Assembly (NCBI RefSeq): GCF_000522985.1
Contig: NZ_CP007130.1
Span: 806,001 to 870,000, forward strand
DNA length: 64,000 bases
Source: Gemmatirosa kalamazoonensis
GTDB taxonomy: Bacteria > Gemmatimonadota > Gemmatimonadetes > Gemmatimonadales > Gemmatimonadaceae
Direction: 5' to 3'
Positions 14,230-32,595 of this stretch are shown one piece after another (the first letter of the stretch is position 1; each line of letters starts with the position of its first letter). The position numbers and the translations under genes are program-made. Below the pieces are notes generated by a model, which ran no database searches, was not told the DNA's origin, and saw only the letters and a list, made by a program, of their open reading frames with translations.

Positions 14230-14342
14230 ACCGCAGAGGTTCGGGACTCGGGACTGGGGACTCGGGACTCGGGAACTGCTCCCCCACGAGTCCCGAGTCC
14301 CGAGTCCCGAGTCCCGAGTCCCGACCCTCTGCGGTTCAATTC
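14229..14342. repeat. Composite hairpin (H5): family-A ends enclosing 7-bp GGACTCG units
   Basis: Outer arms AACCGCAGAGG / CCTCTGCGGTTCAATTC are the tips of the family-A element seen at 17160 and 24992. Inside lie tandem GGACTCG units, a short loop, then complementary CGAGTCC units. The element begins at the kinase stop and ends at the stop of the convergent regulator gene. The inner unit is also the arm of the element at 35090-35262. Confidence 0.85.
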
Positions 14343-15114
14343 ACTGCAGGGGCCTCAACACCGCCGCGGCGAACGACCGGCTCACGCGCAGCTGCTTGCC
14401 GTCCTGCAGGATGGCGACGTAGTCGCCGCCGAACCACGGCTGCAGCTCGCGCACGCGGTCGAGGTTGACGATCGTCGACTTGTGCACGCGCGCGAAGACG
14501 CGCGGGTCGAGCTGCTCGGCGAGCGTGCGGAGGCTCACGCGCAGGCGGTGCGCGGCGCCGCGCGTGTGGAGCACGACGTAGTTGCCGTCGGCCTCGATCC
14601 AGTCCACGTCGACCGCGCGCACGAGCGACGCGCGGTCGCCACGGCGCACGACGAAGCGCGTGAGGTACGGCTCGCTCCCCGACGCGCGCCGCGCCATCTG
14701 CTCGACGAGCGCGGCGAGCCGCTGCTCGAGCGCACCGTCGCCGCGCCGCGCGCGGCCGACCGCGTCGCGCAGGCGCGCGTCGTCGAACGGCTTCAGGAGG
14801 TAGTCGAGCGCGTGCACCTCGAACGCGCGCAGCGCGTGCGCGTCGTACGCCGTGACGAACACGACGCCGGGCATGCGCGCGACGCCGACGCGGTCGATGA
14901 CGTCGAAGCCGTCGAGCCCCGGCATCTGCACGTCGAGGAACACGAGGTCCGGCCGCAGCGCCTCGATCGCTTCGACCGCCGAGTCGCCGTCGCCGCACTC
15001 GCCGACGACCGTGAGGTCCGGCTCCCGCGCGAGCGCGAGGCGCACGTTGTCGCGCGCGAGCGGCTCGTCGTCGACGATGAGGACGCGCAGCGCCGAGTCC
15101 TCGGCGGCTCTCAT
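14341..15114 (-). CDS. LytTR-family response regulator
   Basis: 257 residues from ATG 15114, whose ATG overlaps the stop of the DUF1330 gene (ATGA). The receiver domain has the acidic pair V-D-D-E-P, the phospho-acceptor in L-V-F-L-D-V-Q-M-P-G and the lysine in Y-L-L-K-P-F-D. The C-terminal LytTR DNA-binding domain starts near residue 150 (R-F-V-V-R-R-G-D, W-I-E-A-D-G-N-Y-V, F-A-R-V-H-K-S-T-I-V-N). It probably acts with the convergent kinase at 13114-14229. Target promoters cannot be named. Confidence 0.93.
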   Translation of the reverse strand: MRAAEDSALRVLIVDDEPLARDNVRLALAREPDLTVVGECGDGDSAVEAIEALRPDLVFLDVQMPGLDGFDVIDRVGVARMPGVVFVTAYDAHALRAFEVHALDYLLKPFDDARLRDAVGRARRGDGALEQRLAALVEQMARRASGSEPYLTRFVVRRGDRASLVRAVDVDWIEADGNYVVLHTRGAAHRLRVSLRTLAEQLDPRVFARVHKSTIVNLDRVRELQPWFGGDYVAILQDGKQLRVSRSFAAAVLRPLQ

Positions 15115-17159: not shown

Positions 17160-17252
17160 GAATTGAACCGCAGAGGACGCAGAGGGCCGCAGAGGAGAAC
17201 CCATTGCTGTTGGTTTCCTCTGCGGCCCTCTGCGTCCTCTGCGGTTCAATTC
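17160..17252. repeat. Family-A hairpin element (H7)
   Basis: Left arm from 17160 (GAATTGAACCGCAGAGGACG...), 10-base loop CATTGCTGTT at 17202-17211, right arm 17212-17252 ending CTGCGGTTCAATTC. Arms of ~41 bp pair almost perfectly and consist of CGCAGAGG-type tandem units. The loop is identical to that of the copy at 24992-25083, so the two copies spread recently. It begins 10 bp after the preceding stop. Confidence 0.9.
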
Positions 17253-17344: not shown

Positions 17345-20300
17345 ATGGCCGCTCTCCGCCGACTCCTCGCGTTCCTGTTCCTCGCGGCCGGTCCGCTCGC
17401 CGCACAGTCGACGCCCGAGACCGTCCGCGGCCGAGTGCTCGACGATTCGGGCAAGGTCGTCGTCGGCGCGACCATCCACGTCACGCGCGGCCCGGACCGG
17501 CTCGTCCAGCAGACCGCGACCGACTCCGGCGGCCGGTTCAGCGTGCGCTTCGACCCCGGCACCGGCGACTATCTCGTGGCGGTCGCCGCGGCCGGCTTCC
17601 GCCCGGCGCGGCGGCGCGTGCAGCGGCAGGGCACGGAGCGCGAGCTGGTCGCCGACTTCCGGCTCGGCCGCGACCTCGCGCTGCTCGCGACGGTGAAGGT
17701 GCAGGCGCAGCGCCCCGCGCGCGCGACCGCGAACGTGAGCCCTACGCAGCCCGAGACCGGCGCGTCGGAGCGGTGGAGCGACGGCGTCGAGGGCCGCGTG
17801 TCGCCGACGATGGCCGGGGACCTCGGCGCGCTCGCCAGCACGATCCCCGGGATCACGATGACGCCGAACGGACCGTCGATCCTCGGCGCGTCGAGCGAGT
17901 CGAACCTCACGACGCTGAACGGGATGGGGCTCGCGGCGAGCGCCATCCCGCGCGCCGCGCGCACCGAGACGCGCTTCACGGGCGCGACGTTCGACCCGAC
18001 GCGCGGCGGCTTCTCGGGCGCCAGCATCGACGTCCGGCTCGGGCCGGGGAGCCGCTTCTACCAGCAGCGCAACGCGTACTTCACGCTCGACGCGCCCCAG
18101 CTGCAGTTCACCGACGACGTCGGCCGCTCGCTCGGCGCGTCGAGCGGCACGCTGCGCGGGAGCGTCGGCGCGGATGGAGAGCTGATCCGACAGGCGCTGA
18201 CGTACAACGTCGCGGTCGACGTGTCGCGCTCGCAGTCCGATCCGGCGACGCTGCTCGGCGCCGACGAGGCCACGCTGCTGCGCGCCGGCGTGTCGCCCGA
18301 CTCGGTGGCGCGGCTCATCGCGGTGGCGCAGCCGTTAGGCCTCCCGCTCTCCGGGCGCGGCATCCCCGGCGACCGCACGCGCGACGTGGTGACGTGGCTC
18401 GGCCGGCTCGACGACACGCGCGACTCGCTGAACCGCCGCTCGCTCACGAGCTACGCCGGCTTCACGCGCGAGGGCGCGGTCGGCTTCGGGCCGCTCAGCG
18501 CGCCGTCGGCGGCGGGGGAGCGGCGCGATCGCAACGCGGGGGTGCAGCTCGAGATCCGCGATCTCGTCGGCCCGGGGCGCCGCATCCTGACGCAGACGCG
18601 CGCGTCGGCGAGCGGCGTGTGGACGAAGGGCGATCCGTACGAGGCGCTCCCCGCGGCATCGGTGATGGTGCGCTCGCCGACGCTCGACGAGCGCAGCGAC
18701 GTGACGTCGCTCAGCGTCGGCGGCAACCCGTTCATCGCCGGCGACGAGCGGCGGTGGAGCGCGGAGGTGGGCAACGAGACGGCGTGGAACGCGCGCGGCT
18801 CGCGCCACCGCTTCAAGGCGTCGCTGTGGGGGCGCGCCGATGGGCTGCGGCAGGATCCGGCGGGCAATCTGTTAGGCAGCTACAGCTTCGCGTCGATCGC
18901 CGATCTCGCGGCGGGGCGGCCGGCGAGCTACAGCCGCACGCTCGTGCAGCCGGCGCGCTCGGGGACCGCATGGAACGCGGCCGGCGCGATCGCACACCAG
19001 TGGGTCCCGTCGCGGTGGTTCAACCTGCTGTACGGCGCGCGGGTCGAGACCGACGGCTTCTTCGACGCGCCGCCGCGCAACGCCGCGCTCGAGCGCGCGC
19101 TCGGGGTGCGCACCGGCGCGGCGCCGACGCGCGTTCACGTGAGCCCGCGCATCGGCTTCCAGTACACCTACAACCGCGACAAGGACAACGGGAACGGCAC
19201 CAACCAGTCGCAGATCGGACGTTTCTACCGCACGACGATGGGCGTCCTGCGCGGGGGCATCGGCGAGTTTCGCGACCTGCTGCGTCCCGGCATCCTCGCA
19301 GACGCGTCGGCGGGCGCGGGGCTCGCCGGAAGCACCGAGGTGCTGTCGTGCGTCGGCGCCGCCGTGCCGCTGCCCGACTGGACGCGCTTCGCCGCCGATC
19401 CGACGTCGATCCCGACCGGCTGCGTCGGCGGCGGCGGCGTGCTTGCCGAGCGCGCGCCGTCGGTGACGCTGATCGATCCGTCGTACGACGTGCCGCGCAG
19501 CTGGCGCGCCTCGCTCGACTGGAACAGCGACTGGCACCGGATCATGCTGCGCGCGAGCGCGCTCGCGTCGTACGATCTGTCGCAGCCCGGCAGCGTGGAC
19601 GCGAACTTCGCCGGCAACACGCGCTTCACGTTAGGCGCCGAGGGCGGCCGCCCGGTGTACGTGTCGACGGCGGCGATCGATCCGGCCAGCGGCGCGGTCT
19701 CGGCCGCGGAGGCGCGCCGGTCGAGCGAGTTCGGGCGCGTCGGCGTGCGGACGAGCGATCTGCGCGGCTACGGCGGCCAGCTCACGTTCATGGTGCAGCC
19801 GGACGTGTTCAAGATGCGGCGCATGCCGGGTGGGCTGTTCGCGTCGCTCGCCTACACGGTGCAGGCGACGCGGCGCGAGTACCGCGGCTTCGATGGCGCC
19901 GGGTTCGGCGATCCGCGCGTGCGCGAGTGGGCGGCAGGGCCGAACGACGCGCGGCACGTCTTCCTGCTGCAGGCCGGCGTGACGCCGCCGAAGGTGGGGA
20001 CGTTCACGCTGTTCGCGCGCGCGCAGTCGGGGCTTCCGTTCACGCCGATCGTGCAGGGCGACGTGAACGGCGACGGGCGCGGCGGCGATCGCGCATTCGT
20101 GCCGCAGCCGTTGAACACGGCGCTCGCCGACCCGAACCCCGCCGACCCGACGCCGGCGCAGCTGGCCGCGCTCCTCGCGAACGGCTCGGCGACGGCGCGC
20201 GACTGCGTGCTCGCGTACGCGGGGCGCGTCGCCGACCGCAACGGCTGCCGCGGGCCGTGGACGCAGTCGCTGAACCTGCAGTGGCGGCCGCGCTTGCCGA

Positions 20301-21070
20301 AGAAGATGAACCGGCTCACGGCGTCGGTCTACATGCAGAACGTGCTCGGCGGGATCGACCAGGCGCTGCACGGATCGTCCGGGCTGCGCGGGTGGGGCTC
20401 GTCGGCGCAGCCGGATCCCGTGCTGCTCGTGCCGCGCGGCTTCGATGCGCAGGCGCAGCGCTTCCGCTACGACGTGAACCCGCGCTTCGGCGACACCCGC
20501 GGCGCGCGCACGCTCGTGCGCGACCCGTTCCGCGTGACGATCGACTTCTCGCTGCGGCTGACGACGGACTACGACCTGCAGGAGCTGCGTCGCGCGCTGG
20601 AGCCGGTGAAGGTGTCCGGCGCGTGGCAGCGCCGCACCGCGGACTCGCTCGTCGCGTTCTACCTGCAGAACACGTCGAACATCCACGCCGCGGTGCTCTC
20701 GGAGAGCGACTCGCTGTTCCTCACCGCGACGCAGATCGCCGCGCTGCGCAAGGCCGACTCGGCGTTCTCGGCGCAGGTGCGGGCGCTGTTCATCCCGTTA
20801 GGCGACTACCTGGCGCGCGTCGGCGACGCGGGCGCGGGCAAGGCGACGCTCGACTCGGTGCAGAAGGTGCGCAAGGAATACTGGAAGGTGTTCTGGCAGC
20901 AGCCCGAGATCGCCGCCGAGCCGCTGACGCCGACGCAGATCTCGCTCTTCCCGCTCCTCGCGAACATCCTGCAGACGCCGAAGAAGGAGCGCGAGCACAG
21001 CCAGTGGCAGTTCGGAAATCCGGTGAAGTTCGTGCCGACGGAGCGGGCGGCGTCGCGAACGGACAAGTGA
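17345..21070 (+). CDS. Large TonB-dependent-receptor-like outer membrane protein with carboxypeptidase-regulatory domain
   Basis: 1241 residues from ATG 17345, signal peptide ending G-P-L-A-A-Q. Residues ~27-110 are a carboxypeptidase-regulatory-like beta sandwich (V-R-G-R-V-L-D-D-S-G-K-V-V-V-G-A-T-I). A weak plug-like region follows (S-T-I-P-G-I-T-M-T-P-N-G, S-N-L-T-T-L-N-G-M), then a long barrel rich in aromatic-ended strands. The plug lacks the typical L-Y-V-V-D-G motif of SusC proteins, as in the OmpA/Oar-like receptors of Gemmatimonadota. After the barrel the final ~150 residues are helical and charged (A-L-R-K-A-D-S-A-F-S, V-Q-K-V-R-K-E-Y-W-K), an unusual extension of unknown role. Substrate unknown. 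Confidence 0.85.
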   Translation: MAALRRLLAFLFLAAGPLAAQSTPETVRGRVLDDSGKVVVGATIHVTRGPDRLVQQTATDSGGRFSVRFDPGTGDYLVAVAAAGFRPARRRVQRQGTERELVADFRLGRDLALLATVKVQAQRPARATANVSPTQPETGASERWSDGVEGRVSPTMAGDLGALASTIPGITMTPNGPSILGASSESNLTTLNGMGLAASAIPRAARTETRFTGATFDPTRGGFSGASIDVRLGPGSRFYQQRNAYFTLDAPQLQFTDDVGRSLGASSGTLRGSVGADGELIRQALTYNVAVDVSRSQSDPATLLGADEATLLRAGVSPDSVARLIAVAQPLGLPLSGRGIPGDRTRDVVTWLGRLDDTRDSLNRRSLTSYAGFTREGAVGFGPLSAPSAAGERRDRNAGVQLEIRDLVGPGRRILTQTRASASGVWTKGDPYEALPAASVMVRSPTLDERSDVTSLSVGGNPFIAGDERRWSAEVGNETAWNARGSRHRFKASLWGRADGLRQDPAGNLLGSYSFASIADLAAGRPASYSRTLVQPARSGTAWNAAGAIAHQWVPSRWFNLLYGARVETDGFFDAPPRNAALERALGVRTGAAPTRVHVSPRIGFQYTYNRDKDNGNGTNQSQIGRFYRTTMGVLRGGIGEFRDLLRPGILADASAGAGLAGSTEVLSCVGAAVPLPDWTRFAADPTSIPTGCVGGGGVLAERAPSVTLIDPSYDVPRSWRASLDWNSDWHRIMLRASALASYDLSQPGSVDANFAGNTRFTLGAEGGRPVYVSTAAIDPASGAVSAAEARRSSEFGRVGVRTSDLRGYGGQLTFMVQPDVFKMRRMPGGLFASLAYTVQATRREYRGFDGAGFGDPRVREWAAGPNDARHVFLLQAGVTPPKVGTFTLFARAQSGLPFTPIVQGDVNGDGRGGDRAFVPQPLNTALADPNPADPTPAQLAALLANGSATARDCVLAYAGRVADRNGCRGPWTQSLNLQWRPRLPKKMNRLTASVYMQNVLGGIDQALHGSSGLRGWGSSAQPDPVLLVPRGFDAQAQRFRYDVNPRFGDTRGARTLVRDPFRVTIDFSLRLTTDYDLQELRRALEPVKVSGAWQRRTADSLVAFYLQNTSNIHAAVLSESDSLFLTATQIAALRKADSAFSAQVRALFIPLGDYLARVGDAGAGKATLDSVQKVRKEYWKVFWQQPEIAAEPLTPTQISLFPLLANILQTPKKEREHSQWQFGNPVKFVPTERAASRTDK

Positions 21071-21465: not shown

Positions 21466-22587
21466 ATGCGCGATGCCCCTCCGCCGCCGCTCGCGTCGGG
21501 CACCGCGGGGCGAGTGGTGTACGTGCTCGTCGCCGCGGTGCTCGCGCTGTCGAGCGCCGCGCCGTTCGTGCGGCTCGGCCACGGCGCGCCGAGCGTCGGT
21601 GCGGGAGACGTCGCGGCGGCGCTCGTATACCTCGCGACGTGGGCGCCGTTCGCGGTCGTCGTGACCGCCTTCGCGCGCAGCGCGCTCGCGTCGCGCGCGT
21701 GGATCGCGCTCGCCGGGCACGCGCTCATGCTGCTCGCGTTCCCCGCGCTGCACGCGATCGCGTTCGTCGCCGCGACCGACGCATGGCACGGCGACGGGGT
21801 GCACCTCGCGCGCGCGGCGTCGGACCTGCGCGTCCAGGTGCTCGCGCTGTTGGGCACCCTGCAGTACCTCGTGGTCGCCGCGGCGCTGACGGCGGCGGTC
21901 GCCGGACGCTCGGCCGAGCGCAGTCTGCGCCGCGCGGTGGACCTCGAGCTCGCGCGCGAGCGGCTCGCCGCCGAGCTGGCGCGGGCCCGCGTGGACGCGC
22001 TGCGCGCGCAGCTCCAGCCGCACTTCCTGTTCAACACGCTGAACTCCATCGCCGTGCTCGCGACCACCGACGCGCCGCGCGCGCGCACGATGGTGCGGCG
22101 GCTGAGCGAGCTGCTGCGCGCCGTGCTCGCCGAAGACGAGCGACCCACCGTGCCGCTCGGCCGCGAGATAGATCTGCTGCGCGCCTACGTCGAGATCCAG
22201 CGCGTGCGCTTCGGCGAGCGCGTGCGCGTGTCGATCGACGCCGAGCCGGGCGCGCTCGACGTGCCCGTGCCGACGCTCATCTTGCAGCCGCTGCTCGAGA
22301 ACGCGATCCGCCACGCCGTGGGCGACCGCGAGGAGGGCGGCAGCGTGGCGGTGAGCGCGCGCGTGGCCGGCGAGCGGCTGGAGCTCGCGGTGACCGACGA
22401 CGGGCCGGGCGAGGCGGCGGCGACGGCACCCGACGGTGCGCGTGGTGTGGGGCTCGCCAACACGCGCGGCCGGCTGCAGGCGCTCTACGGCGCGGCGCAC
22501 ACGTTCGCCGTCGGCGCGGCAGCGGGCGGCGGATGGTCGGTGCGCATCGCGGTGCCCGTCGCCGGCCCACGGGCCTCGGCTGCGTGA
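21466..22587 (+). CDS. LytS-type sensor histidine kinase
   Basis: 373 residues, ATG 21466. Four membrane helices cover ~16-147 (V-V-Y-V-L-V-A-A-V-L; A-L-V-Y-L-A-T-W-A-P; H-A-L-M-L-L-A-F-P; L-G-T-L-Q-Y-L-V-V-A-A). A coiled linker leads to A-Q-L-Q-P-H-F-L-F-N-T-L-N with phospho-acceptor H186, then L-L-E-N-A-I-R-H-A and G-V-G-L-A-N-T-R-G-R. Intact kinase. Its stop overlaps the GTG start of the next response regulator by GTGA, giving a coupled operon. Confidence 0.93.
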   Translation: MRDAPPPPLASGTAGRVVYVLVAAVLALSSAAPFVRLGHGAPSVGAGDVAAALVYLATWAPFAVVVTAFARSALASRAWIALAGHALMLLAFPALHAIAFVAATDAWHGDGVHLARAASDLRVQVLALLGTLQYLVVAAALTAAVAGRSAERSLRRAVDLELARERLAAELARARVDALRAQLQPHFLFNTLNSIAVLATTDAPRARTMVRRLSELLRAVLAEDERPTVPLGREIDLLRAYVEIQRVRFGERVRVSIDAEPGALDVPVPTLILQPLLENAIRHAVGDREEGGSVAVSARVAGERLELAVTDDGPGEAAATAPDGARGVGLANTRGRLQALYGAAHTFAVGAAAGGGWSVRIAVPVAGPRASAA

Positions 22588-23381
22588 CGGAGGGGGCGCG
22601 CGGACTCGACGTGCTGATCGTGGACGACGAGCCGCTCGCGCGGCGCGGCGTGCGCGAGCTGGTGGCGGAGCGGCCCAACGTGTCGACCGTGCGCGAGGCA
22701 CCCGGCGGCGCCGACGCGGTGCGCATGATCCACGAGCAGCGACCCGACGTCGTGTTCCTCGACGTGCAGATGCCGCGCATCGACGGCTTCGGCGTGATCG
22801 AGGCGGTCGGCGCCGCGGCGATGCCGCCGGTGGTCTTCGTCACCGCGTACGACGCGCACGCGCTGCGGGCGTTCGAAGTGCACGCGGTGGACTATCTGCT
22901 GAAGCCGGTGGATCCGGAGCGCTTCCGCGACGCGTTCGACCGTGCCGCGCGCGCCGCCGCGCACGACGACCTCGCGGCGCTCCGTGCGGCGCTCGCCGCC
23001 GTCGTGCCGCTCGTCCGCCGCGCACGTGCCGAGGTGCCTAACGAGGTGTCGGAGCCGCGCCGGCTCGCCGTGCACGCGGGCGGACGCGTCGTGTTCGTCG
23101 CGCCGCACGAGGTGGCGTGGGTCGAGGCGCTCGGCAACTACGTGAACCTCCACGTGCGGGGCGGCGCGCTGCGGCACCGCGCGACGATGGAGGAGATGGA
23201 GGCTCTGTTAGGCACCGGCTTCGTGCGCATCCGCCGCTCCGCGCTCGTGCGCGCCGACGCCGTGCGCTGGTGCGAGCCGATGGGGAAGGGGAGCTGGGTG
23301 CTCGTGCTGCACGACGGCACGCGGCTGACGTCGAGCCGGTACTTCAGGGATCGGTTGGATGCGTTGCTCGGCGCAGGATGA
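22584..23381 (+). CDS. LytTR-family response regulator
   Basis: 265 residues from GTG 22584, which overlaps the kinase stop (GTGA). Receiver: I-V-D-D-E-P, V-V-F-L-D-V-Q-M-P-R, Y-L-L-K-P-V-D. LytTR domain in the last ~100 residues (W-V-E-A-L-G-N-Y-V-N-L-H-V, F-V-R-I-R-R-S-A-L-V-R-A-D, S-W-V-L-V-L-H-D-G-T-R-L). Forms a standard kinase/regulator pair with the preceding gene. The usual LytTR start is often missed here because of the GTG. Confidence 0.93.
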   Translation: MTEGARGLDVLIVDDEPLARRGVRELVAERPNVSTVREAPGGADAVRMIHEQRPDVVFLDVQMPRIDGFGVIEAVGAAAMPPVVFVTAYDAHALRAFEVHAVDYLLKPVDPERFRDAFDRAARAAAHDDLAALRAALAAVVPLVRRARAEVPNEVSEPRRLAVHAGGRVVFVAPHEVAWVEALGNYVNLHVRGGALRHRATMEEMEALLGTGFVRIRRSALVRADAVRWCEPMGKGSWVLVLHDGTRLTSSRYFRDRLDALLGAG

Positions 23382-23595: not shown

Positions 23596-24959
23596 ATGAA
23601 GCGCATCTCCGCCCATGCCGCCGCCGCGCTGCTTGCGATTCCCGCCGCGGCGCAGAAGCCGCAGGCCCCGCGACCGTTAGGCCCGGTCGAGCGCACGGCG
23701 GCCGAGTCGTTCGGGTCGCTCATGAGCGTGCGCGAGCTCGCCGACGGCCGCGTGCTCCTGAACGACGTCGCGCGGCGGCGCGTGCTGCTGCTCGACCCCG
23801 ACCTCGCGCGCTCCACCGTCGTCGCCGACACGTCGAGCGCGACGGGGAACGCGTACGCCGGACATCGCGGCAACCTCCTCCCGTTCCGCGGCGACTCGAC
23901 GCTGTTCGTCGACCCGTCGTCGCTCACCATGCAGCTCATCACGCCGCAGGGAACGCTCGGCCGCGTGCTCTCCGTGCCGCGCGCCGGCGAGGCGGGGGCG
24001 CTCGTGAGCATCGGCGGCGGCGTGCCGGCGTTCGACGGGCGCGGGCGGCTCGTCTACCGTACGACCCCACCGCCCCGCATGGTGCCCGCGGCGAAGGGCT
24101 CGAAGGTCGAGATCCCCGAGTTCCCCGACTCCGCGCCGATCGTGCGCGTCGATCTCGCGACACGGCGCGTCGACACCGTCGCGCGCGTACGCATCCCGCG
24201 GCTCCGCGTGCGCGTCGACGCCGACGACGAGGGGCACCTGCGGTCGATCACGCCGCTCGTGCATCCGCTGCCGGCGACCGACGACTGGGCGGTGACGAGC
24301 GACGGGCGCGTCGCCGTCGTGCGCGGCGCCGACTACCACGTCGACTGGTACGCCGCCGACGGTGCGCGGACGTCGACGCCGAAGGTGCCGTTCGACTGGC
24401 AGCGGCTCGACGACGCAGGGAAGGTGGCGTACCTCGACTCCACGCGCGCGCGGCGATGGAGCGGTCGCGCGCCGCGTTCAAGGCGCTCGCCGCGCCCGAC
24501 GCGTCGCCGGCGATGGCCGACAGCGCGCGCCGCGTCATCGATGCCAGCCCGTTCGCCGCGCTGTTCGAGGTGCAGATCCCGATTCCCGACGGCATGGGTC
24601 CGTCGTCGCCCGCCCCGCGTCAACGTCCCGCCGCACCGCCGCCGGGCGCCATGGGGCGTGACGAGGGCCCGTCGCTGCCCGTGCTCGCGTTCGTGGAGCC
24701 GGCCGAGCTGCCCGACTACAAGCCCGCGTTCGCGGCCGGCGCCGTGCGCGCGGACGCCGACGGCAACCTGTGGGTTCGCGAGATCCCGACGCACCCGTAC
24801 CCCGGCCCGGTCTACGCCGTGATCGACGGCGCGGGCAGGCTGGCCGATCGCGTGCTCCTCCCGCGCGGCACCGCGATCGCCGGCTTCGGCCCGCGCGGCG
24901 TCGTGTACCTCGGCATGCGCGACGGCGACGCGGTGCGGCTGATGCGCGCGAGGCGGTGA
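23596..24959 (+). pseudogene. Secreted beta-propeller-like protein, interrupted by a frameshift near 24455
   Basis: The first frame starts at ATG 23596 with a signal peptide (A-A-A-A-L-L-A-I-P-A-A-A-Q) and carries propeller-like repeats (V-R-E-L-A-D-G-R-V-L-L-N-D, L-L-L-D-P-D-L-A). After D-S-T-R-A-R it turns into an arginine/serine-rich shadow frame. Coherent protein resumes in another frame at about 24456 (R-S-R-A-A-F-K-A-L-A-A) and runs to TGA 24957-24959, with typical blades such as A-D-A-D-G-N-L-W-V-R-E. The break lies in the dinucleotide run CGCGCGCG, a slippage-prone site. One indel would restore ~454 residues. Real pseudogene or assembly error cannot be separated by reading alone. It resembles 6-bladed propeller proteins of unknown role. 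Confidence 0.75.
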
Positions 24960-24991
24960 GCGCGGATCTCACGCGACTGGCTTTGCTGTGT

Positions 24992-25083
24992 GAATGAACC
25001 GCAGAGGACGCAGAGGGCCGCAGAGGAGAACCCATTGCTGTTGGTTTCCTCCGCGGCCCTCTGCGTCCTCTGCGGTTCAATTC
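24992..25083. repeat. Family-A hairpin element (H10)
   Basis: Near-identical to the copy at 17160-17252: same arms (ATGAACCGCAGAGGACGCAG... to ...CTCTGCGGTTCAATTC) and the same CATTGCTGTT loop at 25033-25042. It lies 32 bp after the stop of the frameshifted gene and 28 bp before the stop of the convergent regulator gene. Confidence 0.9.
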
Positions 25084-25111
25084 AAAGCGGTCGTCCGATG
25101 TCGTTACCGGC

Positions 25112-26014
25112 TCACGACTCTCCGAGGAACCGCGCGTGGAACTGCTCCCGGAACGTGCGCGACAGCCGCAGCTTCGTGCCGTCCTTCAGCACCACCACCG
25201 CGTCGCCGCCGAACCACGGCTGCACCTCGTGCACGCGCGCCAGGTTCACGAGGTAGCGGCGGTGGATGCGCGCGAACTGGCGGCCGTCGAGCTGCGTCTC
25301 GAGGTGCTGCGACGTCTGCCGCACGAGATAGCTCTGCCGCCCCACGTGCACGCGCACGTAGTTCCCCTCGCTCTCGAACCAGTCGATCTCGTCGAGCCGC
25401 ACGATGCGGAGCGCGCCGTCCACGCGCACCGCGATGTGGTCCGACGCCGCCGACCGCTCGGGGCGCGGCTCCGCGCGCGGCTCGACGCGCGCTTCCGGAT
25501 GCAGGTCCGGGTTCGGTGCGTTCAGCGCGGCGCCGCTCGACGCCGCGCCCTGCACGAGCTCCGCCGCGACGCTGCGGATCAGCGCGCGCAGCCGCTCGTC
25601 GTCCTCGACCGGCGCGGTGCCGGCGCCGGCGAGCGTGCGCAGTCGCTGGCGCGCGCGGTCGAGCGCCGTGCGGAAGCGCGCCTGGTCGTACGGCTTCAGC
25701 AGGTAGTCGACCGCGTGCACCTCGAACGCGCGCACGGCGTACGCGTCGTACGCGGTCACGAACACCACCGTCGGCATGCGCTCCGGGCCCACGGCCTCGA
25801 TCACCTGGAAGCCGTTCAGGTCGGGCATCTGCACGTCGAGGAACACGAGGTCGGGCGACTCCTCCTTGATCCGCTCGACCGCCTCGCGTCCCCCGGCGCA
25901 CTGCGCGACGACGCGCAGGTCGGGCTCCTCGCCTAACAGCCGCGCGAGCCGGCGGCGCGGCACGGGCTCGTCCTCCGCGATGAGGACGGTGATCGGAGTG
26001 TTCGGCATGATCAT
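25112..26014 (-). CDS. LytTR-family response regulator
   Basis: 300 residues from ATG 26014, which overlaps the kinase stop (ATGA); ATG 26008 is also in frame. Receiver: I-A-E-D-E-P, L-V-F-L-D-V-Q-M-P-D, Y-L-L-K-P-Y-D. A long linker rich in Pro, Glu, Arg and Ala (about 135-190) separates it from the LytTR domain (I-A-V-R-V-D-G, F-E-S-E-G-N-Y-V-R-V-H-V, F-A-R-I-H-R-R-Y-L-V-N-L). The linker is longer than in the two other LytTR proteins of the window. Third gene of a coupled run: DUF5916, kinase, regulator. Confidence 0.93.
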   Translation of the reverse strand: MIMPNTPITVLIAEDEPVPRRRLARLLGEEPDLRVVAQCAGGREAVERIKEESPDLVFLDVQMPDLNGFQVIEAVGPERMPTVVFVTAYDAYAVRAFEVHAVDYLLKPYDQARFRTALDRARQRLRTLAGAGTAPVEDDERLRALIRSVAAELVQGAASSGAALNAPNPDLHPEARVEPRAEPRPERSAASDHIAVRVDGALRIVRLDEIDWFESEGNYVRVHVGRQSYLVRQTSQHLETQLDGRQFARIHRRYLVNLARVHEVQPWFGGDAVVVLKDGTKLRLSRTFREQFHARFLGES

Positions 26015-27840
26015 CGGACGGGTTGGGCGATGGCGTGTTCGCCGGTGACGGCGGCGGCCGCGGCGAGGGCCTGGCGCGACACGTTCGCGTCGAGCGCCTC
26101 GCGCAGGTTGTCGGCGAGCGACGCGATCGCGCGCTCGGTGCCGGCCGTGTCGTGCACGACCTCCTCGGCCAGGCGCTCCAGCTCGCGCACGAGCGCCTCG
26201 GGCTGGGCGCGCGACGTCGCCGCGTGGAGCCGCGACTCGGCGAGCTCCGCGCGGAGCGACGCCGCGGTGTTCTCCCGCTCGCGCAGCCACTGCATCGCGC
26301 TCCCGTAGTGGCCGACGCCTAACAGGATGAAGTACGCCAGCACGCTCACGAAGATCGCGGTGACGTACGCCTCGGGCCACTGCGGCTGGTCGGCGGGACG
26401 CAGCAGCGCGCCGAGCAGCGCGCGCCACGTGAGCGCGTGGGCGAGCGCGACGATCGTCGCGAGCGCGAGGTGCGCGATGGCGCGCCACGGCGCGGTGCGT
26501 CCCTCCACCGGGAAGCGTCGCGCGAGCCACACCACGATCGGCGTCGCGACCGCCCACAGCGCCGCGCCGGCGAAGTGCGTCACGAGCACGCGCGGCATCG
26601 CCGCCTCCGCGAGCCGCCCGCGCAGCACGAGGTACGCGCGGCTCTGCCCCACCCACGCCGAGCCCCACAGGAACCAGCCGAGGACCGTCGCCGCCGCGGG
26701 ATGGCGGCGCATCGCCTCGACGACGCGTCCCGCGTCCGGCGCGCCGAACGACGCCGTGCCCGCGTCGTCGTCGCGCGTCGGGCGCCGCGCCGGGATCGAC
26801 AGCGCCACCGACGTCCCGCCGCTCGGCAGCGCGTCGAGCGTGAGGCGCCACGCGCCGCCGTACAGCGCGGCGAGCCGCTCGCGCACGTTGCGCAGCCCGA
26901 TGCCGTGCCCCGGGGTGTGCCCCGCCGCGCCGAGGCCCACGCCGTTGTCGCGCACCGCGACGTGCAGCACGCGGTCCTCCACGCGCGCGAGGATCTCGAT
27001 GCGCCCGCGCGACGACCGGCCCACGAGGCCGTGCTTGATCGCGTTCTCCACGAGCGGCTGCAGCACGAGCCGCGGCACGAGCACGCCGCGCGCCTCGGGG
27101 CTCACGAGCTGCTCGATGCGGAGCCAGTCGGCGAACCGAATGCGCTGGATGTCGAGGTACGGCTCGAGCGTCGCGAGCTCCTCGTCGAGCGTGACCTCCT
27201 CGCCGCGCCGCTCGGTCGCCGTGCGCAGCAGCGAGGCGAGCTGACGGAGCATGCGCGCCGCCGCCGCGGGCGCCTCGTAGGCGAGCTCCGAGACGGCGCC
27301 GAGCGCGTTGAACAGGAAGTGCGGCTGCAGCTGCGCCTCGAGGTACGACAGCCGCGTGCGCGCGAGCTGCGCGCGCAGCACCAGCTCCGCCCGCGTGCGC
27401 GCGACGACCGCGTCGTGCGCGCCGAGCACGCGCGTCGCGAGCACGATCGCGCAGTACTGCGCCGCCGTGACGTCGATGAAGTAGAGCCACGTCGCCCAGA
27501 ACGGCGTCCACGGCGGCATCCCCTCCGCGACGAGCACCAGCCGGCGCGCCATGGAGTCGAGCACGCCCGCCGCGGTGACGCCGGCGAGCACGACGAGGAT
27601 CCGCGCGACCACCGACATGTGGTTGCCGCGCGGGCGCTCCCACCACGCGACGAGCGGCGTCAGCGCGGTCCACAGCAGCGCGATCGAGCCGTAGAACGGG
27701 AGCAGCCGGCGCGGCGGCGGCGCGGACGACGTGGAGCTCACCACCACGCCGTACTCGACGAGCGCGAGCACCACCCATCCGACCGCGGCCCAGCGCAGGC
27801 GCCGCGACGTCCAGGTCTGCAGGATCGGGTGTCGGCTCAA
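26011..27840 (-). CDS. LytS-type histidine kinase fused to a second, degenerate kinase-like module
   Basis: 609 residues from TTG 27840, which overlaps the DUF5916 stop (TTGA); no good ATG exists in this frame. Module 1: four membrane helices (~17-135), L-Q-P-H-F-L-F-N with H174, V-E-N-A-I-K-H with N266, and G-I-G-L-R-N-V-R, an intact kinase ending ~350. Module 2 repeats the plan: four membrane helices (~380-510), the coiled R-E-R-E-N-T-A-A-S-L-R-A-E-L-A-E-S-R-L-H-A linker, then a region aligned with the His box (S-R-A-Q-P-E-A-L) without H-F-L-F-N, and no ATPase domain. The second half looks like a decayed duplicate or a built-in regulatory sensor. Confidence 0.85.
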   Translation of the reverse strand: MSRHPILQTWTSRRLRWAAVGWVVLALVEYGVVVSSTSSAPPPRRLLPFYGSIALLWTALTPLVAWWERPRGNHMSVVARILVVLAGVTAAGVLDSMARRLVLVAEGMPPWTPFWATWLYFIDVTAAQYCAIVLATRVLGAHDAVVARTRAELVLRAQLARTRLSYLEAQLQPHFLFNALGAVSELAYEAPAAAARMLRQLASLLRTATERRGEEVTLDEELATLEPYLDIQRIRFADWLRIEQLVSPEARGVLVPRLVLQPLVENAIKHGLVGRSSRGRIEILARVEDRVLHVAVRDNGVGLGAAGHTPGHGIGLRNVRERLAALYGGAWRLTLDALPSGGTSVALSIPARRPTRDDDAGTASFGAPDAGRVVEAMRRHPAAATVLGWFLWGSAWVGQSRAYLVLRGRLAEAAMPRVLVTHFAGAALWAVATPIVVWLARRFPVEGRTAPWRAIAHLALATIVALAHALTWRALLGALLRPADQPQWPEAYVTAIFVSVLAYFILLGVGHYGSAMQWLRERENTAASLRAELAESRLHAATSRAQPEALVRELERLAEEVVHDTAGTERAIASLADNLREALDANVSRQALAAAAAVTGEHAIAQPVR

Positions 27841-30530
27841 GGGCTGAACCAGTAGGTGGCCTTCACCAGGAACACGTTCGTCGGCCGCGTGCGGAAGATC
27901 GCGCCGACGTCGCGCCCCGCGTCGAAGTCGCCGACCGCGTCGAAGCCGCTGCGCTGCTGCTGCCACACGACGAACAGCGCGGAGCCTGGACGGTACTCCC
28001 ACCGGGCCACCGCGTTGCCGCGCAACGAGCGCACGTTGAACGTCGGATCGGGGAAGACGAACGACTTCGCCGGGCCGGCCGCGCCGTCGGGGTCCACCGT
28101 GTACGTCCCGTTAGGCGCGCGGTCGATCGTCCCACGGTCGCGGCCGTACACCGCGAAGTCGTACGTCCGCGGCGTCGCGAACTCCTTGAACGCGTCGTAG
28201 CGCCCCGCCGACACGAACGGCTGCACGTACGTCTGGAGGCTCAGCGTGCGGGTGAGCGTCCACTCCACGCGCGTGTCGAGCGACAGCGTCTGCTGGTGCA
28301 GATCGGCGAACACGTAGCGCGTGCCGTAGGTGCTCGTCGCCGTCGCGTCGCTCACGCCGCGCACGTATTGCGACGTGCCGTACGTCGCGCCGAGCGTCGG
28401 GCCGAACGTGAGGTGCAGCGTGGTGGTCGGCCGCGAGTCGACGTACAGGCCGTACGACGCGTTGTGCGCGCCCGACGCGTCGCCGTTGTAGCTCAGGAAC
28501 GGGTTGAACCACACCGCCTTGCGCGTGTCGTTCGTGACGCTCGCGCTCACGTTCCAGCCCCGCGGCTGCAGCGCGAGCGGCCCGCCGCGCAGCAGCTTGT
28601 CGTTGTACCGGTCGGGCTGCACGCCGGCGCGCGCGTTCACGTTCCAGAAGTTGCTCAGCGTGCCGCTCGCGCTCCCGTTCACCGACTGGTAGATCGACGC
28701 GCCGCCCCAGTTCCACGCGCTGTTCTGGTACGCGAAGATCGAGCGGGAGCGAAAGTGCTTCGTGGCGCGGTTCGTCGAGTAGCCGTACAGCGCCGACACG
28801 GCGCGGTAGTCGACGCGCGAGTGGAAGCCGACGTCGTTGATGTCGAACCCCGGGCTCCCGTCCTGCATGGTGAGGGAGCCGAACCACTCGCCGGTCTTCT
28901 GGAGCGCGAGCGCCGAGATGTGCCCGCCGAGCGACGTGCGGCTCGGGTTCACGTCCACGTAGTCGGCGTCGGGCCGCTGATAGTAATGGATGCTGTTGCG
29001 CTGGAGGCCCGTGATGACGCTCGCGCTCCCCTGCACGAGGCTCTGCGCGAAGTAGCCGCTGAGGTAGTACTTGCGGCGCTGCCACGAGTGCTCGAAGTCC
29101 ACGCCGCCGAAGCCGCCGCGGCGCGCGAGCAGCGGCGCGAACACGTCGTCCGAGAGATCGCGGTCGACGCCGGTGAGCATCGCGCCGACGACGGTCTGCC
29201 CGCCGCGGAAGTCGCGCCGCACGCGTCCGGCGAAGTAGTCCGCGCGCGGCTCCACCGGGGAGGTGCCCAACGCCCCCGACGGGCTCGCGATGTCGGCCAC
29301 CTCGCGCGCTGTGACCGCATCGAGCAGTCCCACCGTCCACGGCCCGTGCTTGCCGCTCACCTTCGCCGCGCCGAGGATGCGCGTCTGGTCGGGCGCATCG
29401 GCGAACGCGACGCCGGGCCCGTTGCCGGAGAGCGACGGCGGCCGCCCGATGCGGCGCGAGTACAGGAACGTCGCGCCGGCGTAGCTGTTCTGCGACCGGA
29501 TGTTGCCGAACTGGAAGACGTCGGATCCCTCGAGGAAGAACGGCCGCTTCTCGGGGAAGAACGTCTCGAACGCGGTGAGGTTCACGACCGCGGGATCGAC
29601 CTCGACCTGCCCGAAGTCGGGGTTGATCGTCGCCGTGAGCGTGAGGCCGCCCGGCAGCCCGTAGCGCACGTCGCCGCCGACGTTGGGCGCCACGTCGGTC
29701 GCGTGGAAGAACGGGTTCTGCCGCGAGCCCGGCGCCCGCGTCGCCTTGCTGCTCACGTACGGCACGAGCTCCAGGTGCCGCGCCGTCGGCAGCGCGTCGA
29801 GCCCCGTGAGCGTGCCGAACAGCGACACGAAGCCGCCCATCTGCGGCGTCCACGGGGAGAACGAGTCGCGCTCGTTGCGGCGCGCGACGTCGCGCATGAC
29901 CTGGAAGCCCCACTCGCGCGGCGCGCCCGGCTCCGCGCTCCCATACCGGAGCTGCGACAGCGGGATGCGGTACTCCGCGACCCAGCCGAGCGAGTCGACG
30001 CGCGTCGCGCACTCCCACACGGCGTCCCAGTTCACGTCCTCGTTCCCGTCGTTCGACGTGTAGACGTCCTTCTGCACGCCCTTCGGATTGACCGTGAAGC
30101 GGAACGCGGTGCGCCGGTCGTGGTAGCTGTCGATGATGACGTGCACCCAGTCGGAGTAGATCTGCGACGCGTCACGCCGCGCGAGCTGCGCGGCGATGGA
30201 GTCCGGGTGCGCATCGTACATCCGCGCCCCGACGTAGATCGCCGACTCGTCGAACAGGACCCGCACCGACATCGAGTCCGCGGCGGGCTTTCCCGGCTGC
30301 GGCCAGCTCTGGGTGAAGTCGGAGTACGCCGGCGCCGCTGCCCACGCTGCCTCGTCGAGCCTCCCGTCGAGCGTCACGCTCCCCGCGCGGTGGACGGCGC
30401 GCAGCGAGGAGGGGGCGGCGACCTCGCCGCCGGCGGTCCGGGCGGCGCGCGGCGCCTGCGCCGGAGCGCCGGAGAAGGGGGTGGCGGCGAGCCCCGCGAC
30501 GATCGCGGGGACGAGGAGGGGACGGTGCAT
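27837..30530 (-). CDS. DUF5916 family outer-membrane-type protein with CBM9-like N-terminus
   Basis: 897 residues from ATG 30530; signal peptide ends G-A-P-A-Q. Residues ~45-230 form a carbohydrate-binding family 9-like domain (V-T-L-D-G-R-L-D-E-A-A-W, W-V-A-E-Y-R-I-P-L-S-Q-L-R). The DUF5916 domain follows with its marker strings N-P-D-F-G-Q-V-E-V-D-P and F-F-P-E-K-R-P-F-F-L-E-G, then a beta-barrel-like C-terminus ending V-K-A-T-Y-W-F-S-P. Family function unproven; probably outer membrane and glycan-related. First gene of a three-gene unit with a sensor kinase and regulator, all joined by 4-nt overlaps, so the regulator may sense envelope or substrate state. Confidence 0.88.
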   Translation of the reverse strand: MHRPLLVPAIVAGLAATPFSGAPAQAPRAARTAGGEVAAPSSLRAVHRAGSVTLDGRLDEAAWAAAPAYSDFTQSWPQPGKPAADSMSVRVLFDESAIYVGARMYDAHPDSIAAQLARRDASQIYSDWVHVIIDSYHDRRTAFRFTVNPKGVQKDVYTSNDGNEDVNWDAVWECATRVDSLGWVAEYRIPLSQLRYGSAEPGAPREWGFQVMRDVARRNERDSFSPWTPQMGGFVSLFGTLTGLDALPTARHLELVPYVSSKATRAPGSRQNPFFHATDVAPNVGGDVRYGLPGGLTLTATINPDFGQVEVDPAVVNLTAFETFFPEKRPFFLEGSDVFQFGNIRSQNSYAGATFLYSRRIGRPPSLSGNGPGVAFADAPDQTRILGAAKVSGKHGPWTVGLLDAVTAREVADIASPSGALGTSPVEPRADYFAGRVRRDFRGGQTVVGAMLTGVDRDLSDDVFAPLLARRGGFGGVDFEHSWQRRKYYLSGYFAQSLVQGSASVITGLQRNSIHYYQRPDADYVDVNPSRTSLGGHISALALQKTGEWFGSLTMQDGSPGFDINDVGFHSRVDYRAVSALYGYSTNRATKHFRSRSIFAYQNSAWNWGGASIYQSVNGSASGTLSNFWNVNARAGVQPDRYNDKLLRGGPLALQPRGWNVSASVTNDTRKAVWFNPFLSYNGDASGAHNASYGLYVDSRPTTTLHLTFGPTLGATYGTSQYVRGVSDATATSTYGTRYVFADLHQQTLSLDTRVEWTLTRTLSLQTYVQPFVSAGRYDAFKEFATPRTYDFAVYGRDRGTIDRAPNGTYTVDPDGAAGPAKSFVFPDPTFNVRSLRGNAVARWEYRPGSALFVVWQQQRSGFDAVGDFDAGRDVGAIFRTRPTNVFLVKATYWFSP

Positions 30531-30832
30531 GCCGGTGGGCGGGGGTGAAAGGCGGGACGGGTCCGGTGGACCGGCGCTGTCGCCGTGACGTCTAGACAGC
30601 CGGCCCCCCGGGCGCGTTTCGCCCGCACCCTCCACGGTGCACCCCCGGCGGGACGGAACCAAGCGACTTGTGGCGAGCCGAGGCCCCTGGCGGGCCAGCG
30701 GGCTCCCCGCCGTGACGAGCCGTTCGCCGCCTTCCGGGGCTGCGTGGGATCCCTGGTTGATTCGCTAATGGCGCCCGGCGGGGTTATTCACCCAGGGAAG
30801 GACTCGCAGGATCCCTGCTCACCGAGGTCGTC
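30531..30832. other. Intergenic region without a recognised feature
   Basis: 302 bp between the divergent DUF5916 and PEP-CTERM genes. It must contain both promoters. Several short GC-rich inverted repeats and two GGATCCCTG copies (30749, 30811) are visible, but I could not match a riboswitch, sRNA or operator class. Confidence 0.5.
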
Positions 30833-31504
30833 ATGCTCCAGGCTCCCCGCAGGATCGGCACGGCGCTACTCGCCGTCACCTGCTCGGTCGGCGCCGCAAC
30901 GGCCGGCGCGCAGGTAGTCACGTACTCCGCCCACGACTCCCATGCCGGCGTCTTGGGGCCGAACTCCTCGGCGGCCCAGCTCAGCTTCCTGAGCGCGACG
31001 GGCGGCGCGGTCGGGATGACGTTCGAGTCGGCGCTCCCGACCGGCGTCGGCATCGTCGGCGGCACGATCACCAACGATGCGGTCTGCGCGGCGAGGCTCT
31101 GCGGCTTCAACACGACGGCGGGGGGACAGAGCTTCCTGTTCCAGTACGGCCAGTCCGCCACGTTCACGTTCGCGACGCCCATCGACTACTTCGGGGCGTA
31201 CTTCGGCGGCGTGCAGATGCTGAACAGCATCGAGTTCACCGACGTGCACGGAAACCAGGTCGTGCCGATCCCGTTCTCCCACGAGGCCGGCGGCTCCTTC
31301 GTCGGCTTCACGAGCGCCGGCGCGGCGATCTCCTCCGTCACGATCAACGCGCGGGCGAGCGGCACCGGCGACATCATCACGGTGGACGACGTCATCTTCG
31401 GCACCCTGGTGACGAGCGTGCCCGAGCCGGCCACGTGGCCCCTCGTGATGAGCGGGTTCGCGGGCCTCGCGCTCCTGGCCGAGCGCCGGCGGCGTCGCGC
31501 GTGA
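30833..31504 (+). CDS. PEP-CTERM sorting-signal protein
   Basis: 223 residues, ATG 30833, signal peptide to A-T-A-G-A-Q. The C-terminus is a textbook PEP-CTERM tag: V-P-E-P-A-T-W, a hydrophobic helix (P-L-V-M-S-G-F-A-G-L-A-L-L-A) and an arginine-rich end (E-R-R-R-R-R-A). Such proteins are cleaved and anchored or released by exosortase, usually in strains that make exopolysaccharide. The middle is beta-rich (F-G-A-Y-F-G-G-V, I-T-V-D-D-V-I-F-G) like other exported PEP-CTERM proteins. No exosortase gene lies in this window. Monocistronic. Confidence 0.93.
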   Translation: MLQAPRRIGTALLAVTCSVGAATAGAQVVTYSAHDSHAGVLGPNSSAAQLSFLSATGGAVGMTFESALPTGVGIVGGTITNDAVCAARLCGFNTTAGGQSFLFQYGQSATFTFATPIDYFGAYFGGVQMLNSIEFTDVHGNQVVPIPFSHEAGGSFVGFTSAGAAISSVTINARASGTGDIITVDDVIFGTLVTSVPEPATWPLVMSGFAGLALLAERRRRRA

Positions 31505-32459: not shown

Positions 32460-32595
32460 TCGACCGCAGAGGACGCAGAGGACGCGGAGGAGAACCATCT
32501 CGATCGATTTCCTCCGTGTCCTCCGTGTCCTCCGTGGTTCAACTCGAAGAGGCAGTCCTCTGCGGCCCTCCGCGTCCCTGCGGTTCACTGCCACG
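32460..32595. repeat. Composite hairpin (H11), family-A and GGACACGG arms
   Basis: Left side ACCGCAGAGGACGCAGAGG leads to a CTCGATCG loop, then tandem CCTCCGTGT units. A second right-hand arm follows: GAAGAGGCAGTCCTCTGCGG to ...CTGCGGTTCA at 32588. That junction is the reverse complement of the junction in the element at 338-585, so the same composite occurs twice in opposite orientation. It is the only element of the set lying between divergent genes. Confidence 0.8.

Follow-up and report, generated by a model that had tools for sequence, protein, structure and literature searches.

Asymmetry between the halves of a histidine kinase has long been a question, since a mutation cannot be confined to one of two identical chains. 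RetS, a kinase-like protein without full catalysis, modulates a partner kinase. Histidine kinases are presented as homodimers in the available text of PMC9491836, where ChrS(CA-fs) and DivL figure as pseudo-histidine kinases. The accessible part of PMC12675982, in which RetS is also named, describes FasB/FasC of group A Streptococcus as a heterodimer whose FasC subunit is a proposed pseudokinase. Non-hybrid histidine kinases with two transmitter domains amount to 2 of 15,704 in the portion of PMC3018481 available, and the accessible sections of a review (PMC12471899) name tandem and hybrid kinases and no live/dead fusion of the type reported here. We describe a kinase from Gemmatirosa kalamazoonensis KBS708 that, as judged from its motifs and profile alignments, is a fusion of two LytS-type halves, the first with its histidine and ATPase and the second without the histidine. 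We found no description of such a live/dead fusion in a search, mostly outside subscription papers, of the literature on tandem, dual and pseudo-histidine kinases and on LytTR in Gemmatimonadota.

The window, by which we mean the whole stretch of 64,000 nucleotides analysed (G000:C4:806001-870000, from a genome totalling 7,479,215 bases), carries a DUF5916 gene, the fused kinase gene and a response regulator gene in succession (Table 1). KBS708 has a 5,312-kb chromosome and satellite elements of 1,106 kb and 1,041 kb (PMC3974934), and the locus most likely lies on the 1.04-Mb plasmid; a search of PLSDB, from which the plasmid's own record may be left out, and a search of Rfam each returned no match. 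Pfam bears out the domain names proposed in an earlier, sequence-only reading of this DNA, namely PF19313 with CBM9 for the first protein, PF06580 with HATPase_c for the kinase, and REC (85.1 bits) with LytTR (86.0 bits) for the regulator. The DUF5916 protein, a putative outer-membrane protein according to that reading, has a single hydrophobic stretch, at its N-terminus and likely a signal peptide, followed by a CBM9-like domain at residues 54-229 (CBM9_1, 40.2 bits against a cut-off of 23.4) and by DUF5916 at 252-894 (PF19313, 169.1 bits against a cut-off of 22.6). A structure model of this protein, built from 3 rows, reached a mean pLDDT of 30, a PDB search with it returned no significant relative, and the literature searched held no mention of DUF5916.

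Table 1. Features of the DUF5916-kinase-regulator locus, in window positions.
Feature	Positions	Strand	Basis
DUF5916 gene, 897 aa	27837..30530	minus	Pfam, hydropathy
TTGA overlap of kinase TTG start (27840-27838) and DUF5916 TGA stop (27839-27837), two bases in common	27837..27840	minus	
Fused LytS-type histidine kinase, 609 aa, single open frame	26011..27840	minus	Pfam, alignment
Kinase catalytic half	26776..27840	minus	Pfam, motif table, hydropathy, structure model
Kinase second, degenerate half, aa 381-586	26083..26700	minus	Homology to catalytic half, motifs, hydropathy, low-confidence model
ATGA overlap of kinase stop TGA (26013-26011) and regulator ATG (26014-26012)	26011..26014	minus	
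Response regulator, REC + LytTR, 300 aa	25112..26014	minus	Pfam
Long hairpin directly past the regulator gene, one of the copies of a repeat dispersed in the genome	25000..25077		

Other signalling genes lie nearby and elsewhere in the genome. A second LytS/LytTR pair occupies the plus strand at 21514-22587 and 22584-23381, joined by a GTGA overlap and preceded by a large TonB-type-receptor-like gene (17345-21070, plus strand), with the receptor and regulator labels assigned from sequence. On the minus strand, a response-regulator-like gene at 14341-15114 (start MRAAEDSALRVLIVDDEPLARDNVRLALAREP) shares an ATGA overlap with its upstream gene and has no obvious adjoining kinase. On C3, at about 396-398 kb, one chain (L059:7071-8861) joins a LytS-type kinase, a receiver and a LytTR DNA-binding domain and, to go by these domains, is a whole two-component system in one protein.

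Both Pfam matches of the fused kinase fall within its first 352 residues (His_kinase PF06580, 82.5 versus 25.2 bits; HATPase_c, 43.3 versus 26.4 bits), and residues 353-609 have no Pfam match. The DHp of the catalytic half contains QLQPHFLFN (His174), and its HATPase_c contains the N-box VENAIKHG together with DNGVG and GIGLRN. This half thus has the phospho-acceptor histidine and the HATPase_c with N-box and G-boxes that define a LytS-type kinase, and the second half has neither phospho-acceptor histidine nor HATPase_c. Profile-profile comparison nonetheless identifies the last ~230 residues as a second, degenerate LytS-type half. Aligned by hhalign, the first-half and second-half profiles (A2 versus A3) gave a probability of 99.7% and E 1.2e-25 over 290 columns that include a decayed ATPase remnant, and omission of the remnant from the second-half profile (A4) gave 99.3% and E 1.7e-20. 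The second half runs from membrane helices through a long helix into a DHp-like hairpin, where the window kinase has E548 in place of the histidine (QPEAL) and other members have QLRPEF or QLRPQF.

We tabulated these motifs in 24 chains, comprising 22 of the 23 fused loci, a G146 fragment cut by a contig end and the own paralog (L058_6); the G068 kinase, overlooked by the gene caller, was left out. The first-half histidine is kept in 22/22 chains holding DHp1, the second-half histidine occurs in 0/23 chains holding DHp2, and the DHp-like stretch of the second half is present in 23/23 chains that reach it. Among 9 aligned members the second half has 12 invariant columns, with P547, L554, L575 and R580 invariant within the DHp-like stretch. 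Identity to the window kinase is 28-36% in the second half and 37-53% in the first. The decayed second ATPase remnant could be aligned in 4 members, tails of about 105-230 aa are present in others, and the G1 box of the first half is also changed in one sub-clade (L057, L058, L296, L298). Read from these alignments, the second half has lost its histidine and, in the window's clade, the entire ATPase, and has kept its membrane helices and dimerisation hairpin. The sequence-only reading had assigned the LytS domains correctly, and the two-half fusion is absent from it. We also considered whether the fused kinase might be two genes or a sequencing error and rejected this, the same continuous frame being found in many relatives.

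Hydropathy predicts 4 membrane helices in the first half of the window kinase and 3 in the second, counts that vary among relatives. An AlphaFold model of the kinase from 31 rows (the window protein and 30 GTDB kinases) reached a mean pLDDT of 72 and a pTM of 0.56; the first half is good, and confidence is low in the second (pLDDT 38-65 for residues 381 to 550, 76-84 at 551-580) because the rows cover the first half alone. Helices are modelled at residues 5-36, 43-68, 77-105, 114-170 and 173-189 of the first half and, with low confidence, at 381-406, 411-442, 450-479, 490-543 and 547-563 of the second. Their order repeats in the model as three helices, a fourth that continues as a long helix, an interruption at the histidine-motif proline and two more helices. 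Foldseek, informative for the catalytic half, matched histidine kinases with GanS first, and the GanS kinase domain (6swj/6swk) is the best solved relative by both sequence and fold.

Full-length relatives of the fused kinase occur in G009, G014 (two) and G019 and, with a longer linker, in G028, G011, G005 and G015, and a regulator adjoins 7/8 complete fused kinases. Counted at scores of at least 143 bits, with the next rows at 117 bits and below, the second-half profile A4 detected the fused module at 23 loci in 21 of 179 Gemmatimonadaceae genomes, spanning 10 of 35 genera, and the module is free of internal stops at all 23. Rows at or below 117 bits were mostly single kinases, together with partial fused ones (G146, a second piece from G180 and the own paralog at C2:2095667). 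Across the phylum, 22 of 395 genomes passed E 1e-36, of which 20 belong to Gemmatimonadaceae; the hits outside the family, in G343 and G424, have open frames of only ~445 aa and are therefore probably single kinases. A GTDB scan with A1, a profile that matched generic LytS motifs, listed 80 LytS loci, none of them a fused kinase; G182, to which the Roseisolibacter sp. H3M3-2 DNA of contig C803 belongs, carries the fused module on another contig that is absent from those 80.

In a maximum-likelihood tree of 33 catalytic cores, from which L287, L289, L290, L292 and L295 are left out, 19 fused kinases and the own paralog fall on one side of a branch with support of 93/93, just under the program's star mark, and in every one of 200 bootstrap trees a single change is enough. 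That the fusion arose once is the simplest reading of this placement. The window's sub-clade (10 rows, 99/97) is without the second ATPase remnant. Within the fused clade, the own paralog (L058:7563-9266, at about 2,096 kb on C2; 567 aa) also lacks the second-half histidine and has no regulator gene directly adjoining, and the fused kinases L296 and L298 (G059, G063) lie near a LytTR regulator, an opposite-strand gene and a short-type DUF5916 gene.

The junctions between the three genes proved to be as the sequence-only reading had them: on the minus strand, the TTG at 27840 overlaps the DUF5916 stop, the stop of the kinase in turn overlaps the ATG of the regulator, and no ATG or GTG fits the kinase N-terminus. 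In the kinase frame, GTG 28002 and GTG 27966 lie 54 and 42 codons upstream of the TTG, within the DUF5916 gene, and GTG 27774 and GTG 27771 lie in the first membrane helix, right behind W22. This tryptophan is kept in 7 of 9 alignment rows, the window's among them, these being all the rows that reach it (the ninth, L055, stops short), and is also present in the G009 ortholog once the frame is extended upstream past the called start. Ahead of the helix that ortholog has solely a TTG (L049:8324), its next GTG (8384) being within the helix. Because no ATG or GTG fits, the TTG is the best candidate start, and as a prediction from the frame it is well supported. No good Shine-Dalgarno precedes it (the best match is 3 bases), so that a leaky start, or re-initiation following the DUF5916 stop, is plausible but unproven.

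Neither the overlap nor the start codon is unusual in kind. Of the window's 25 pairs of same-strand neighbours, 6 are joined by four-base overlaps (4 ATGA, 1 GTGA, 1 TTGA), and 14 GTG and 2 TTG codons are found among the starts of 42 internal genes, according to a gene caller that was trained on some of these genes, disfavours TTG, may place starts wrongly and overlooked some genes, such as the L290 kinase. In the available text of PMC3887535, ATGA, GTGA and TTGA are the four-base overlaps and phase-2 overlaps of 1 or 4 bases the most frequent type; the TTGA and ATGA of the window are these same ordinary overlaps and differ from them in nothing. The TTGA overlap and rare TTG start are therefore real but routine. 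The TTGA and the ATGA are both stop/start overlaps on one strand, as is required for translational coupling, and the tight coupling proposed earlier for DUF5916, kinase and regulator is supported. We infer operon transcription and coupling from this layout, in which the three genes very probably form one operon. A consensus scan of 24900-30900 found no sigma-70-like promoter or terminator, and the hairpin past the regulator gene is a possible end of the transcript. The repeat to which this hairpin belongs has copies at 25000-25077, 17169-17243, 363-532 and 32465-32490, and the copy past the regulator gene has a folding energy of -87 kcal/mol (z -13.3). A 17-mer of the repeat, CCTCTGCGTCCTCTGCG, is found here in 225 exact copies and is absent from 15 relatives; among the matches listed, many form facing pairs.

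The sequence-only reading went further and suggested that DUF5916 works with the sensor pair, an interpretation that is only partly supported: ortholog contexts, tree and a control family all speak against a conserved functional unit. In G009 the DUF5916 ortholog (57% identical and sister to the window's in the tree, 100/98) lies on C16 and the kinase ortholog on C23, neither adjoining the other's partner. A DUF5916 gene is absent from the 16-18 kb stretches of 8/8 complete kinase orthologs fetched first (L054, a ninth stretch fetched alongside them, ends within the kinase gene), and further DUF5916 genes lie ~11 kb (G009) and 18 kb (G011) from the fused kinase. Across all fused-kinase stretches, several of the later ones cut by contig ends, a shorter-type DUF5916 stands by the fused kinase in G059 and G063 only. 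From the DUF5916 side, a LytS/LytTR neighbour was found at 4 of 109 loci from 52 relatives (29 with flanks up to 1.5 kb, 80 with about 4 kb at least unless the contig ended), in three different arrangements, L164 and L173 being left out of the count as weaker receiver-domain matches. L069/L299 (G025) has the window's order DUF5916-kinase-regulator with gaps of 42 and 10 bases, the one further instance found of that exact order and one with a different kinase type; L170 (G055) has kinase-regulator-DUF5916 on the same strand; and L113 and L174 are divergent, the latter hand-picked since a kinase had been seen near it. Among the 80 GTDB LytS loci, kinase-regulator-DUF5916 occurs in L233 (Roseisolibacter sp. 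H3M3-2), the same DNA as L306 (G182) and counted once, and in L231 (a Terriglobia MAG). The own genome holds a further DUF5916/LytS pairing, with one gene in between, at C4:699-704 kb, and a weak ATPase-like fragment ~1 kb from the DUF5916 of L003.

Immediate adjacency of DUF5916 and LytS/LytTR stands at 3/109 (4 with the hand-picked locus) against 0.20 expected by random gene order. As control we used PF00144, an arbitrary, abundant and unrelated family, with a 4-kb criterion where the first test had used immediate neighbours and with pairs counted by eye among the matches listed. Among these matches, 4 of 142 DUF5916 (expected 1.3, P 0.04) and 3 of 141 PF00144 (expected 1.1) lie within 4 kb of a LytS kinase (Fisher p = 1.0), and the own genome has 2 such pairs for each family. 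The co-occurrence in other genomes that had been offered as a check does recur, but is no commoner than for the control, and because the control is equally near we dropped the excess over random gene order as a sign of specific linkage. The DUF5916 tree, which leaves out L067 and L080 (fragmentary gene calls) and the own L003 and L008, cannot account for its 5 labelled rows with fewer than 5 gains or losses, and in the kinase tree the partner kinases outside the fused clade belong to several lineages. Of the best 30 short-type DUF5916 loci, 27 have no kinase or regulator match in flanks of ~1.5 kb and the other 3, which do, are members of the query alignment. A conserved DUF5916-LytS unit was accordingly rejected. 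We conclude that DUF5916/LytS pairings form repeatedly with no special affinity, and the window's DUF5916 link is a local, lineage-specific arrangement.

Our main reading, to which we give a probability of roughly 45%, is of an operon with a coupled TTG kinase start and a local DUF5916 link, in which the live and dead halves of the kinase pair within one chain. A single transcript would be made, and the kinase would be translated from its weak TTG by coupling to the end of DUF5916 translation, so that the sensor would be made in smaller amounts than the presumed surface protein. The live half would autophosphorylate and hand its phosphate to the adjoining LytTR regulator. The dead half would pair with the live half inside the same chain, completing the DHp four-helix bundle, and would add a second membrane sensor, giving two inputs. 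Such a kinase may be monomeric or asymmetric, phosphorylated at one site and equipped with two sensor modules in the membrane. Intramolecular pairing is, we infer, most likely. More tentatively, we suggest that a pseudo-heterodimer both obligate and covalent may have evolved once in Gemmatimonadaceae; it would have a single phosphorylation site and two membrane sensors independent of each other, and could integrate two signals without dimerising.

A fused chain would equally permit homodimerisation through the catalytic halves, as in any LytS kinase, with the second halves serving as side sensors or anchors appended in the membrane that tune it. That histidine kinases are homodimers as a rule, and that the second half has in the window's clade lost its ATPase and kept its membrane part, keeps this a serious, if somewhat doubtful, possibility; a mere sensor, however, would not need a DHp-like stretch, and one is kept in every chain reaching it, with the same four residues invariant in the 9 aligned members. 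The second half might instead be a decaying relic of a tandem duplication without present function, as the loss of its histidine and ATPase motifs and its lower identity to the window could suggest. We consider this very improbable, in that a useless 200-residue tail should have been broken or lost, whereas the module is uninterrupted at all 23 loci in 10 genera and retains 12 invariant columns.

Two further alternatives concern the DUF5916 junction. DUF5916 and the LytS pair could form a dedicated sensory or uptake unit, in which DUF5916 is under the control of the regulator and whatever it brings in is sensed by the kinase. Same-strand pairs do recur (L299, L170, L233, L231), and immediate adjacency exceeds its random expectation, yet this proposal is unlikely given the unlinked orthologs of G009, the five forced tree changes and differing kinase lineages, the 27 of the best 30 short-type loci without kinase or regulator match in their flanks, and the equal closeness of PF00144 to LytS kinases among the matches listed. 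It is more improbable still that translation begins at GTG 27966 or 28002 inside DUF5916, or at GTG 27774, leaving the TTG unused: GTG is the commoner start in the window, but the upstream codons would add an arginine-rich out-of-frame stretch, and a start at GTG 27774 would cost the protein W22 and some of its first helix.

Taken alone, the TTGA overlap and the link to DUF5916 matter little; what merits pursuit is the fused live/dead kinase. A natural chain in which a live half is fused to a dead one would make histidine kinase asymmetry directly testable. Stages of decay can also be seen across the lineage, the ATPase remnant being degraded in some members and missing from others.

Compared with known LytS/LytTR systems (E. 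coli BtsS/BtsR and YpdA/YpdB; GanS), the window kinase likewise has PF06580 and HATPase_c, several membrane helices and a REC-LytTR partner, and differs in having a second, catalytically dead half as part of its chain. With the two-transmitter kinases, as given in the available part of PMC3018481, it has in common two halves derived from transmitters and joined in a single chain that has no receiver, and domain counting would overlook the window's fusion because its second half has no Pfam match. FasB/FasC, as presented in the accessible text of PMC12675982, similarly pairs a live kinase with a proposed pseudokinase, but there the two are separate proteins and FasC keeps its phosphorylated histidine, whereas the window's dead half is covalently fused and without the histidine. 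ChrS(CA-fs) and DivL, in the available text of PMC9491836, resemble that dead half in being kinase-like without full catalysis and in modulating a partner kinase. ChrS(CA-fs), DivL and RetS, however, act on a separate kinase, whereas at the window locus partner and pseudokinase are one gene.
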